Assembly (NCBI GenBank): GCA_013297775.1
Contig: JAAFIL010000034.1
Span: 1 to 37,278, forward strand
Reading direction: 5' to 3'
Source of the DNA: Bacteroidota bacterium
GTDB lineage: Bacteria > Bacteroidota > Bacteroidia > B-17B0 > Aurantibacillaceae
DNA: 37,278 nucleotides
Shown here: positions 2,649 to 26,875 of the stretch, in pieces
Layout of the letters: the number at the start of each line of letters is the position of its first letter
How positions within the stretch are numbered: position 1 is the first letter of the stretch
Notes under the pieces: model-generated
What the model saw: only the letters and a program-made list of their open reading frames with translations
Database searches by the model: none
What the model was told of the DNA's origin: nothing
Program-made: the position numbers and the translations under genes

Positions 2649-2765
2649 AAGTTACCACTCACAAAGGTTTGCTAAAGTAGGGTAGAAGAGTTGAGTAAAC
2701 GTACTTGGACATCTAGTAATTATTAATCACAATAGGATTACCTGCAAGTGGCAACCATTTTGTAA

Positions 2766-2816
2766 TTTGGCAATTTCAAAATTTACACGTAGATTTATAA
2801 TTAAACAAACACGTGT
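2766..2816 (+). promoter_or_regulatory. Candidate promoter and operator of the toxin-antitoxin operon
   Basis: TTTG at 2766-2769 and TAGATTTA at 2790-2797 are spaced by 20 bases, near the Bacteroidota TTTG-N19-TAnnTTTG promoter (last base of the -7 box differs). The palindrome ACACGTGT (2809-2816) sits directly before the antitoxin ATG, and a second ACACGT half-site lies upstream at 2784-2789. Paired half-sites around a promoter are what an autoregulating antitoxin would use; this is inference. Confidence 0.35.
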
Positions 2817-2819
2817 GTT

Positions 2820-3065
2820 ATGACAACAAAACTAACATTAACAATGGACGATTCCGTAATTTCAGTTGCTAAGAAATATGCAAGGCAAAAAGGTAAAAGT
2901 TTGTCCGACATAGTAGAAAACTATCTTATGTCTTTGACTTCGAAAGAAGATAAAGACGAAAAAATTTCACCAAAAATTTTAAAACTAATGGGTGTTATTT
3001 CGTTACCAAACAATTATGACTACAAAAAAGAACTAACCAAAGGACTGACTAAAAAGTATAAGTAA
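2820..3065 (+). CDS. Antitoxin of a PIN-type toxin-antitoxin pair (DUF6364-like)
   Basis: 81 residues. It begins TTKLTLTMDDSVISVAKKYARQKGKSLSDIVENYL, the beta-strand plus two-helix layout of a ribbon-helix-helix-like DNA-binding antitoxin of the DUF6364 type. The C-terminal half (KISPKILKLMGV...) would be the part that wraps and blocks the toxin. Its TAA overlaps the toxin ATG by one base (TAATG), which supports translational coupling and is typical of toxin-antitoxin operons. RHH antitoxins generally repress their own promoter; a candidate operator lies just upstream. Confidence 0.8.
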   Translation: MTTKLTLTMDDSVISVAKKYARQKGKSLSDIVENYLMSLTSKEDKDEKISPKILKLMGVISLPNNYDYKKELTKGLTKKYK

Positions 3066-20949: not shown

Positions 20950-23900
20950 ATGGCATTAAGAAGAGATAATAAACAAAAATCGAATTTCTCGAAGATCACC
21001 ATTAGTTTGGCTTCTCCCGAAACGATTTTAAAACGTTCGAGTGGTGAGGTGTTAAAACCCGAAACCATTAATTACCGTACCTACAAACCCGAAAGAGATG
21101 GTTTGTTTTGCGAACGTATTTTTGGGCCGGTAAAAGATTACGAATGTCATTGCGGAAAGTACAAACGTATTCGCTACAAAGGCATTACCTGCGACCGTTG
21201 TGGGGTAGAGGTAACCGAAAAGAAAGTACGCCGCGAGCGCATGGGACACATCAATTTGGTGGTACCCGTAGCGCACATCTGGTATTTCCGCTCGTTGCCC
21301 AACAAAATTGGGTATTTGTTAGGCTTACCTACCAAAAAACTAGACATGATTATTTACTACGAACGTTATGTAGTAATTAATGCTGGTGTAGCTGCCGAAA
21401 ACGGTATTTCGTATTTAGATTTCTTAACCGAAGAAGAATACTTAAATGCCATTGATGCGCTTCCTAAGGAGAATGCACTTTTAGATGATGAAGACCCTAA
21501 TAAATTCATCGCTAAAATGGGTGCCGAAGCCTTGCAAGATTTATTATCGCGTCTAAACTTAGACGAACTTTCTTACGAATTGCGTCATAAAGCCAACACC
21601 GAAACTTCGCAACAACGTAAAAACGAAGCTTTAAAACGTTTACAAGTTATTGAAGCATTCCGCCAAGCTAACCAAAACGTTGTTAACAAACCCGAGTGGA
21701 TGGTGGTAAAAGTAGTACCAGTTATTCCGCCAGAATTACGTCCTTTAGTACCTTTAGATGGCGGTCGTTTTGCAACTTCTGATTTGAACGATTTATACCG
21801 TCGAGTTATTATCCGTAACAACCGTTTAAAACGCCTTATCGAAATTAAAGCCCCCGATGTAATTTTGCGTAACGAAAAACGCATGTTGCAAGAGTCGGTT
21901 GATTCGTTATTTGACAACTCACGAAAATCAAATGCCGTTAAAACCGAAAGTAACCGTGCTTTAAAATCGTTATCCGATTCATTAAAAGGTAAACAAGGGC
22001 GTTTCCGTCAAAACTTATTAGGTAAACGTGTAGATTACTCAGCGCGTTCGGTAATTGTTGTAGGTCCAGAATTAAAATTGCACGAATGCGGTTTGCCAAA
22101 AGAAATGGCTGCCGAATTATTTAAGCCATTTATCATTCGTAAAATGATTGAACGTGGTATTGTAAAAACTGTCAAATCAGCTAAAAAAATTGTTGACAAA
22201 AAAGAACCCATCGTTTGGGATATTTTGGAAAACGTTTTAAAAGGACATCCTGTTTTATTAAACCGTGCGCCAACCCTTCACCGTTTGGGTATTCAAGCCT
22301 TTCAACCTAAGTTAATTGAAGGAAAAGCCATTCAATTACATCCATTAGTGTGTTCGGCGTTTAATGCCGATTTTGATGGCGATCAAATGGCGGTACACGT
22401 TCCATTAGGAAATGCCGCTATCTTAGAAGCACAAATTTTAATGTTAGCCTCGCACAACATCTTAAACCCATCTAACGGTGCGCCAGTAGCGGTTCCATCG
22501 CAAGATATGGTTTTAGGTTTATATTATTTAACCAAAGGCAAACGCAATTTAGTTGATGATGCTGTTAAAGGAGAAGGTAAAATATTTTATAGTGCTGAAG
22601 AAGTTATCATTGCCACTAACGAAAAGCAAATAGACATCCACGCGCAAATTAAAATTAAAATTACGAATGCCTTAGAAGGCGATCATTTAGTAACCAAACT
22701 CATTGATACCACTGCTGGACGTGTTATTTTTAATACCGTTGTGCCACACGAAGTAGGCTTTATCAACGAATTGTTGACTAAAAAATCGCTTCGCGACATT
22801 ATTGGCATGGTGTTAAAGAAAACCGGAATGGCTAAAACAGCCAAGTTCTTAGATGACATTAAAGAATTAGGATTCCGTACAGCGTTTAAAGGCGGTTTAT
22901 CGTTTAACTTAGGCGATATTCAAACACCACCTGAAAAATTCAAAATTATTGCCGACGCTCAATTAGAAGTAGATGAAGTAATGAACAGTTACAACATGGG
23001 CTTCATTACCAATAACGAGCGTTATAACCAAATTATTGATATTTGGACGCATACCAACTCTAAAGTAACCAAGAAAGTATTAGACAAGTTAAGCACCGAT
23101 AAACAAGGCTTTAACTCGGTTTATATGATGTTGGATTCGGGAGCGCGTGGTAGTAAAGAACAAATTAAACAGTTAAGCGGTATGCGCGGTTTGATGGCAA
23201 AACCACAAAAAGCGGGTGATACAACGGCTTCAATTATTGAGAACCCCGTATTATCGAACTTCCGCGAAGGCTTATCCATCTTAGAATATTTTATTTCTAC
23301 TCACGGTGCGCGTAAAGGTTTGGCCGATACCGCTTTAAAAACAGCCGATGCGGGTTATTTAACCCGTCGTTTAGTTGACGTGGCTCAAGACGTTATTATT
23401 AACGAATTTGATTGCGGAACCCTTCGTGGATTAAGCATGACGGCGTTAAAAAATAACGAAGATGTGGTAGAAAGTTTATACGACCGTATTTTAGGTCGTA
23501 CCGCAGTAAACGATGTATTTCATCCAACAACTGGCGAATTAATTGTGGCTGGTGGAGAAATTATTACTGAAGATGTAGCCGTTATTGTTGAAAAATCGCC
23601 TATCGAAACCATAGACATTCGTTCGGTATTAACCTGCGAAAGCCGCTTAGGCGTGTGTGCAAAATGTTATGGCCGCAACTTAGCCAACAACCGTTTGGTA
23701 CAATTAGGCGAGGCTGTTGGTGTTATTGCTGCTCAATCTATTGGTGAACCTGGTACACAGTTAACCCTTCGTACCTTCCACGTGGGTGGTACTGCTAGTA
23801 ACGTTACCGCTTCATCAAGTGTTATTGCCAAATACGATGGTGTTGTAGAAATTGATGAATTACGCACCGTAGAACGTGTAAACGCTGAGGGAGCCAAAGC

Positions 23901-25242
23901 TAATATTGTTATTGGCCGCTCAACCGAAATGCGTATTGTTGATGCCAACACAGGCATTACCTTAACTACTGGTAATATCCCTTACGGTTCTAACCTTTAT
24001 ACAAAGCCAGGTGCTAAAGTGAAAAAAGGAGAACTTATTTGTGATTGGGATCCTTACAATGCCGTTATCGTATCCGAATTTGGTGGAATCGTTGAATACG
24101 AACACATCAAAGAAAATATTACCTTCCGCGAAGAAGCCGATGAACAAACGGGCTTTAAAGAAAAAGTAATTATAGAAAGTAAAGACAAAACTTTGAGTCC
24201 GTTAATTAAAATTGTGGACAAAAAAGGCGAAGTGTTGAAAATGTATAACATTCCGGTAAGTGCCCACATTGTGGTAAACGAAGCCGCTAAAATTGAGCCA
24301 GGTCAAATTCTTGTTAAGATACCTCGTGTAACGGGTAAAACGGGCGATATTACGGGTGGTTTACCACGTGTAACCGAACTCTTCGAAGCACGTAATCCAT
24401 CTAACCCAGCTGTGGTTAGTGAAATTGATGGCATTGTTACGTTTGGCAAAATTAAACGTGGTAACCGCGAGGTGATTGTGGAAGCTAAAACAGGCGAACA
24501 ACGTCGTTACCTCGTTAATTTAAGTAAACACATTTTGGTACAAGAAAACGATTTCGTGAAAGCTGGTAACCCATTGTCAGATGGAGCTATTAGCCCCGGC
24601 GATATCTTAGCCATCAAAGGTCCAACTGCTGTACAAGAATACTTAGTAAACGAAATTCAGGAGGTTTATCGCTTACAAGGACAAAAATTAAACGATAAAC
24701 ACTTCGAAACCATTGTGCGTCAAATGATGCGTAAAGTCGAAATTGTTGACCCAGGCGATACTATTTTCTTAGAGCAACAACTCGTTAATAAGGCTGATTT
24801 TATGACTGAGAACGATACTATTTTTGGTAAAAAAGTAGTAATTAATCCAGGCGATAGCACCGAATTAAAACGCGGTCAAATTATTACTAGTCGTAAATTA
24901 CGTGATGAAAACTCTATTTTAAAACGTAAAGATTTAAAAGTAGTAGAGGCGCGCGAAGCGGTTCCTGCAACGGCTAATCCTATTTTACAAGGTATTACGC
25001 GTGCATCGTTACAAACTAATAGCTGGATTTCGGCGGCATCGTTCCAAGAAACCACCAAAGTATTAAACGAAGCTGCTGTAAACGGAAAAGTAGATACTTT
25101 AAACGGATTAAAAGAAAACGTAATTGTTGGGCATTTAATTCCTGCTGGTACTGGTTTACGTCAATACGAAAAATTAGTAGTAGGCAGCAAAGAAGAATAC
25201 GAGCGTTTAATGGCTAGTAAAGAAGAAGTAGAAGTTCAGTAA
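20950..25242 (+). CDS. rpoC: RNA polymerase subunit beta'
   Basis: 1430 residues. Zinc site 1 in the clamp (about 66-86: [20 protein letters not shown]), catalytic [12 protein letters not shown] with three Mg-binding Asp at about 472-478, bridge-helix and trigger-loop region, and zinc site 2 beginning near residue 895 ([13 protein letters not shown]), followed by [25 protein letters not shown]. Residues ~930-1150 hold the insert between trigger-loop halves found in this phylum. The C-terminus ends in an acidic EEVEVQ. It closes the operon and is followed by a strong terminator. Confidence 0.99.
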
Positions 25243-25262
25243 AATAGTTTAAATAATCATTT

Positions 25263-25293
25263 AAAAACCTCGGTAGAAATACCGAGGTTTTTT
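25263..25293 (+). terminator. Intrinsic terminator after rpoC
   Basis: AAACCTCGGTA (25265-25275) pairs perfectly with TACCGAGGTTT (25280-25290) around GAAA, a stable tetraloop, then continues the T-run to 25293. It ends the secE-to-rpoC transcription unit. Confidence 0.92.
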
Positions 25294-25421
25294 GTTGAAG
25301 GAGAAAGGCTTAGTTAAACGTATTGTGAGTGAGCCTTTTGGAACTATTTAACCTTAATTTCAAGAAAGAGGGTCTTCAGAATAAAGTTTATAACTCGATT
25401 AAATAATAGACTACATTAAAA

Positions 25422-25453
25422 GTAGCACGCAAAGATGCAGAGGGCGCAAAGTC
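25422..25453 (+). repeat. GCAAAG-type intergenic repeat fragment
   Basis: Contains GCACGCAAAGATGCAGAGG followed by GCGCAAAG. The same words occur in the 35400-35640 tandem repeat, near 37030 in inverted orientation, and at the right window edge. The gap 25294-25837 otherwise holds structured repeat copy 2 and no gene. Confidence 0.5.
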
Positions 25454-25510
25454 GGAAATTAAATTTTGAAAAAGGATTTTAGAATAGATCATTACCTTTA
25501 TTAAATACTA

Positions 25511-25707
25511 TGATTTAAGTTATATGGAATTAGACCGTAGAAGCCAAATTTTTTGGCGAATTATCTGTCTTGGTGTGGATAATTCCCGAAGTAAATTTGG
25601 GACAGACTTCGGTTTAGTAACTGTTAAGATTTCTTACAAATGATTTACCTTAAAATCCTCACAAATACTTAATAGCAGACAGTTTCCTCCTTTGAACTGT
25701 TTGTTTC
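25511..25707 (-). repeat. Structured intergenic repeat, copy 2 (inverted relative to copy 1)
   Basis: The reverse complement aligns with 9896-10073; the longest shared blocks are GGTAAATCATTTGTAAGAAATC and AAAAAATTTGGCTTCTAC. It keeps the three hairpins of copy 1 with substitutions that mostly preserve pairing (GCCAAA/TTTGGC here for GCTAAA/TTTGGC there). It has a fourth hairpin, CCGAAGT (25586-25592) with ACTTCGG (25606-25612), absent from copy 1. It is intergenic and non-coding. Confidence 0.75.
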
Positions 25708-25837
25708 CATCTAACTCATTTTTAAGTATTGATTTTAAGTGTTTTATAGAGTTAGCTATTTTATTCTAAAGTATTAGATTTCTTGAAATTTAGGGCTTAA
25801 AATGAATGTCTTGAGTAGGGTTATACTTGTTTACTAA

Positions 25838-26344
25838 TTATTGCTCTACGTCAAACTCATATTTTACTTCAATCCGTTTATTTTGATCGCGTTTTTCCCA
25901 TAGTCCATAAGTTAGAGACATTTTTTTTACTTTCTCTGAACTTACATCACGCAACACAAAAGTAAGTATCCAAAAATCTTCCTTGGCGTTTACATCAATT
26001 TGATTTTTTATTAAGTTGTAATTACGTTTATTTTTTTGCTTAATATTTTTACCGTAAACAATGATTTGAACATTTCCACCATTTCTAATTTCTTCTCGGT
26101 TTTTTTACCGCTCATCATTAACGCTGTATGTCATACGCATACTTATAACTGGAGGAAAATCTTCGGGATCTTTGGCAGAAACATGAAATAGAACCAAAAC
26201 GTCTTTTTTGTTGATGGAGTCCATAACTTTTGCTTTTAAAAACTTTATGTCATGCACCGTTTTTTCCTGAGCGAAAATAAACGAATGAAGAGTAATCCAG
26301 AAAAGAAATATTAAAATGATGGGGCGAACTATTTTTATTTTCAT
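25838..26344 (-). pseudogene. Secreted small protein gene interrupted by an in-frame TAA
   Basis: The frame begins at 26344 with a signal peptide (KIKIVRPIILIFLFWITLHSFIFAQ) and reads to ...SVNDER, where TAA occurs at 26107-26105. The same frame then stays open for 88 more codons, KNREEIRNGGNVQIIVYGKN onward, ending KYEFDVEQ at a TAA at 25838-25840. The second half is well-formed coding sequence in the same phase, so one nonsense change in a protein of about 168 residues explains it best. I recognise no family. Either the product is truncated at 79 residues, or the stop is read through, or it is a sequencing error. It lies downstream of the PH-like membrane protein gene on the same strand. 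Confidence 0.65.
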
Positions 26345-26419
26345 GTAAGTGCGTTTGTTTCCCGAAATTTTAGTTCTGAAGGAGTTTTAGCTACTTTGAA
26401 TGCTACCTCCCAAGTTTAA

Positions 26420-26875
26420 TTACTTTGATCTAGTTTTTAGATTTTCGTTAACCAGTTTCAAAAGGGTTTCGCGCGTGGGGGCAATGTGCGAGGGTTTAAT
26501 GCCTATTAAATTCGGACGCTCGCTTTCATCGTCGTTAAACACCACCGCAAAACGGCCGTTTTTTACTTCGTTAACCGTCTTTAAATCTAAAAAATGCCAT
26601 TGCTTGGTATGAAAAATAGATTGTTGAATTTCCATACGATCTTTATAAAATACCACAAAAGGATTAAGCATAAACCAAAACGCCTGGTAAAGCAAAACCG
26701 AGGCAGGCACCACCGAAAAGAAACTTAAAGGATTAATGGTGCGTAAATCGTTTTGGTTAAAAATACTATCGTAAACCCAATAGCAAGCCGCCGCCGCTAA
26801 AAGCCAAGTTACAATAACCACAAAGGGGTTTCGTTCAAAATAATGAATCGGGTTTTCAATAATCGTCTTTTTCAC
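26420..26875 (-). CDS. Two-helix membrane protein with a PH-like domain
   Basis: 151 residues. Two hydrophobic segments (about 17-34 and 49-70) are followed by a soluble ~75-residue part, VVFYKDRMEIQQSIFHTKQW... to VNENLKTRSK, whose strand pattern and single C-terminal helix suggest a bacterial PH-like domain. It probably sits in the inner membrane with the PH-like part in the cytoplasm. Function is not known. The gene is divergent from the lytic transglycosylase and probably the first of two with the broken secreted-protein gene (76-base gap). Confidence 0.7.
   Translation of the reverse strand: MKKTIIENPIHYFERNPFVVIVTWLLAAAACYWVYDSIFNQNDLRTINPLSFFSVVPASVLLYQAFWFMLNPFVVFYKDRMEIQQSIFHTKQWHFLDLKTVNEVKNGRFAVVFNDDESERPNLIGIKPSHIAPTRETLLKLVNENLKTRSK

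Follow-up and report, generated by a model that had tools for sequence, protein, structure and literature searches.

In-frame stop codons within bacterial genes have been argued to be widespread and mostly short-lived, and it has been suggested that they may be read through (Belinky et al. 2021, PMC7918605, in the parts of that paper drawn on here). We describe one such stop in a member of the Bacteroidota (family Aurantibacillaceae), located in a window of 37,278 nucleotides, i.e. the whole stretch of DNA that was analysed (assembly GCA_013297775.1, contig JAAFIL010000034.1, positions 1 to 37,278). In our judgement a recent nonsense substitution has probably made a pseudogene of an accessory gene that encoded a small exported protein with a beta-sandwich fold.

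The gene layout, as put forward in a preliminary description of this DNA, was confirmed on the sequence. On the minus strand an ATG at 26344-26342 opens the N-terminal part (26108..26344), which runs for 79 codons to an in-frame TAA at 26107-26105. This part comprises a likely signal peptide and predicted strands 1-3; taken at face value, the sequence would yield this part as its product. Past the TAA the same frame stays open, with no frame shift, for 88 codons more (C-terminal part, 25841..26104, predicted strands 4 to 8) up to a second TAA at 25840-25838, and the homologues described below end within a few residues of the same place. The split frame has 168 positions when the internal stop is counted as one. 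It had been proposed that a standard gene caller would give only the 79-residue protein, and the mechanical list of open reading frames (minimum 50 aa) indeed has just one entry for the split frame, 26105-26344, 79 aa. The upstream neighbour (26420..26875, minus strand, co-directional) by reading probably encodes a small membrane protein. It is present in 37 of the 40 genomes of the genus, its stop codon lies 75 bases from the ATG at 26344, and a gene for an SLT/LysM protein lies beyond it. On its other side the split gene is flanked by rpoC (20950-25242, plus strand).

Two unrelated frames, the second of them open by chance, might be suspected in a locally AT-rich sequence, and pairs of same-frame open segments (at least 50 codons on both sides of a stop) occur 426 times in 1.35 Mb of this genome. 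Against this, 88 open codons arose in 0.03% of 20,000 simulations when a dinucleotide Markov model was given the composition of the C half, and in 0.14% of 20,000 when it was given that of the surrounding region. The hexamer usage of the C half is coding-like, with log-odds per codon of +0.38 as compared to -1.0 and -1.4 in the other two forward frames; the six neighbouring genes measured ranged from +0.25 to +0.52. The N half, about one third of which is signal peptide, scored only +0.03 per codon. It is homology that decides for one gene rather than a chance frame, since the two halves, searched separately, hit the same proteins: the loci L003, L004 and L005 for the C half (tblastn, 5e-10 to 1e-11), and L003 (7e-12) and L004 (7e-7), not L005, for the N half. 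As homologues join both halves in one frame, the chance reading is refuted and its probability is negligible. The product of the split gene is likely to be secreted, judging from a hydrophobic N-terminal stretch followed by ..FAQ and from the helix predicted for residues 3-17 of the folded homologue L003.

The preliminary description had proposed to look for one homologue spanning the stop. Nine were found besides the window (in G018, G013, G030, G364, G236, G384, G467, G493 and G490), which supports its claim that an in-frame stop splits a single secreted-protein gene; homologues ending at the first stop, which it had named as contrary evidence, were not seen among the nine. When aligned together, all nine run across the stop position and none has an internal stop, i.e. 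TAA occurs at the split site in one of the ten aligned sequences, the window's own. The G467 and G236 proteins do not differ in the aligned residues, and the nine thus represent eight distinct proteins. The family members are window positions 25841-26344 and the loci L003-L005, L087-L089, L252, L254 and L255. Two weak matches were left out of the count: one in G067 (6e-4, positions 78-153) has two stops inside, and its locus (L090) has no family-like open reading frame of at least 60 aa in the matched frame; the other, in G035 (0.006), covers 33 positions.

The homologues are distant from the window protein (23-36% identity) and define a family whose members are about 165 residues long and probably secreted; it occurs patchily in two families of one class. 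A search with the single sequence gave matches in 4 of 100 relatives, source genome included, and in the same four among 87 genomes of the family. The profile search gave matches in 6 of 395 genomes of the class, in 4 of 87 of the order (which here counts no more genomes than the family) and in 6 of 45 genomes of the family of G364. Within the genus it matched 5 of 40 genomes at E <= 0.01 and 4 of 40, source genome included, at E <= 1e-3. Pfam and NCBIfam gave only below-cut-off matches (best E 0.025) in 7 of 10 aligned members scanned, and a sequence search of the PDB gave no match at E <= 1.

The split gene looks like a dispensable accessory gene, and its accessory status (4 of 40 genus genomes) makes a loss plausible and unremarkable. 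It was absent from the 80 RpoC loci examined, where the best RpoC matches were Bacteroidota records (up to 92%). The closest copy found of the neighbour 26420-26875 is that of G027 (58%), with SLT/LysM, LRR, ffh and sulP-like genes near it. The split-gene family was not found in G027, and rpoC was not reached before the end of the contig. At the place that corresponds to window positions 25243-26419, G027 has a different gene on the opposite strand (contig C53, L124) which adjoins the neighbour homologue. The different gene at this place, together with the missing rpoC, indicates that this side of the neighbour is variable. We also note that a same-genus homologue of 26420-26875 (G009, contig C31, 27184-27582; L108) is listed as having a single TGA inside. 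A search of five larger homologue regions (L125-L129; E <= 0.01) for seven of the window neighbours gave no match to any of them, and the neighbourhood thus gives no clue to function.

The fold was predicted with AlphaFold for the intact homologue L003, using a six-row homologue alignment from which the window was left out. The model (mean pLDDT 79, pTM 0.72) has an N-terminal helix followed by eight beta strands, and the fold predicted for this one intact homologue is that of an Ig-like beta sandwich. The internal stop aligns with L003 residue 78, in a predicted hairpin turn between strands 71-76 and 79-83 (strands 3 and 4); the turn region varies by a few residues in length across the family, so the exact aligned residue is uncertain. 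According to this model the truncated product would contain three of the eight strands, and it would probably be unable to fold as the domain.

Foldseek gave one match in the PDB at E <= 0.001 (9pr6_A, 6e-4, TM 0.40), and the best VIA-align Z was 7.8, with many ties and no match clear of unrelated rows. The predicted sandwich has a common arrangement that resembles the archaellum stator proteins FlaG/FlaF and parts of particulate methane/ammonia monooxygenase subunits (VIA-align Z 7.2-7.8), and these rows are tied with a viral protein, US2, at Z 7.8 and with antibody domains at a Z of about 7. All Z values are however below 8 and the identity in the FlaG/FlaF and monooxygenase rows is 7-12%, in other words the resemblance is one of general fold only and does not show a family relation. 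A function could not be assigned from the fold, as neither Foldseek nor VIA-align gave a structural match clear of unrelated ones.

The position of the stop within the predicted beta sandwich also speaks against a division of the gene into two, in which a short N-terminal peptide would be exported and the C-terminal protein would have a start of its own. Although both halves are preserved as sequence, no ATG, GTG or TTG is present in the first 49 codons after the internal TAA, and the second half would be without a signal peptide. We give this division into two genes hardly any credence.

The divergence of the two halves was compared with that of the homologues. In the C half the identity between the window and six homologues is 27-35%, and among those six it is 15-41%. 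The corresponding values for the mature N half are 20-39% between the window and the homologues and 4-52% among the homologues. The C half is without a further stop or frameshift. In simulations of a neutral substitution model, without indels or selection, the median distance at which the next stop appeared in the C half was 0.034-0.042 substitutions per site, and 95% of the runs had one by 0.15-0.18. As the C half is undecayed and no more diverged than the homologues, the interruption is either young or an error. We note that an error or a functional readthrough would account just as well for the lack of further decay.

On the nonsense reading, which we favour, the intact ancestral gene would have encoded a secreted protein about 168 residues long, with one Ig-like beta-sandwich domain. 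In the middle of this domain a sense codon would then have changed to TAA, as is suggested by the stop being private to the source genome among the sequences found and by the frame being unbroken on both sides. Translation would end after 79 residues, i.e. after the signal peptide and three of the eight strands, leaving an incomplete sandwich, and the second half would no longer be made. The still undecayed C half suggests that such an event would be recent.

The explanation that comes second is a sequencing or consensus error, in which case the organism would have a sense codon at this place and an unbroken gene. We consider this less likely than a real mutation, but in its favour the gene otherwise looks intact, the 4.35 Mb source genome is assembled in 128 contigs, and the other convincing private stop that we found (L138, see below) is near the start of a 6 kb contig. 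However, the frame is kept on both sides, and therefore a single homopolymer indel cannot explain the stop despite the seven-A run in TAAAAAAA. A substitution error would be needed, and such errors are rarer in consensus sequence. Moreover, the long open reading frames around the split gene are uninterrupted. The A7 run follows the stop and resembles a slippery site; a frameshift or slippage was nevertheless rejected, as both halves are already in one frame and no shift is needed.

The background of in-frame stops was estimated in a scan of 79 stretches including the window, together 1,352,572 bases or 31% of the genome. The scan looked for coding-like frames that run on after a stop with no start codon soon behind it, and it gave ten candidates, two of which were convincing by reading (the split gene and an HsdR_N-like gene) and one doubtful (L140). 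This low background is as expected of ordinary pseudogenes; one other convincing and one doubtful case fit scattered pseudogenes or errors, not a changed code.

The HsdR_N-like gene (L138, G000 contig C9, 116-1051, minus strand; Pfam HSDR_N 1e-14) has its open frame interrupted by a TAA after codon 203, within the first 450 bases of its contig. This stop is private, as six homologous frames (G043, G070, G036, G035, G057 and G027) are open there. A TAA shared with G036 and G035 was considered and rejected after seven frames were read: in those two genomes it lies upstream of the ATG, and only that of the source genome is internal. The 3' end of the HsdR_N-like gene also departs from its homologues. 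In the doubtful case (L140, G000 contig C11, about 2667-2825, plus strand) a frame of 641 codons ends in TAA, behind which the same frame continues for 52 codons, possibly an interrupted gene. The 52-codon tail has a weak match to Por_Secre_tail, a secretion sorting tail (E 0.043, below cut-off).

A functional stop readthrough, whereby some ribosomes would decode the TAA as an amino acid and so produce a low level of the full protein, appears very improbable. It would agree with the preserved second half, and with the argument on bacterial in-frame stops in the cited parts of Belinky et al. 2021 (PMC7918605). On the other hand, TAA is the main terminator of this genome (383 of the 514 long open reading frames in the sampled 1.35 of 4.35 Mb), and TAAA is the commonest four-base stop context (173/514), the internal TAA too having A as the next base. 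No UAA-reading anticodon was detected by ARAGORN at 33 tRNA matches, where 150 of 375 first-look candidates were scored and a missed tRNA is possible. The 120 nucleotides after the stop form no stable RNA structure: 145 of 200 shuffled versions fold equally well or better (z 0.62). The absence of the stop from the nine homologues indicates that it is not a conserved recoding site. Genome-wide recoding or suppression of TAA was rejected on terminator use in the sampled 1.35 Mb and on the anticodons at the 33 tRNA matches. By analogy one may also imagine that the TAA is kept as a low-level switch, with mostly the 79-residue product being exported and rare readthrough giving a little full-length surface protein, so that the stop would be a short-lived dosage device such as Belinky et al. 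have proposed; we regard this as a speculation with an even smaller chance of being right.

The preliminary description had left three causes open. With respect to these, a nonsense mutation is now favoured and an error comes second, whereas readthrough found no positive support in terminator use, tRNAs or RNA folding. The finding is an ordinary one and matters little in itself. Nevertheless, a standard gene caller would give a misleading 79-residue protein here, and a member of a small secreted family that has no name would go unnoticed; the nine intact relatives make this family recognisable and could seed a profile.

As in the cases of Belinky et al. 2021 (PMC7918605), one in-frame stop is present and the frame behind it is preserved; the large-scale set described in the cited parts of that paper is based on stops common to two or more species, whereas the present one occurs in one genome only. 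The locus differs from the bacterial nonsense pseudogenes in that no other decay is visible, which would place it at their young end or else reflect an error. In other respects it is like them: one in-frame stop is private to one genome, intact homologues exist elsewhere, and the gene is an accessory one.
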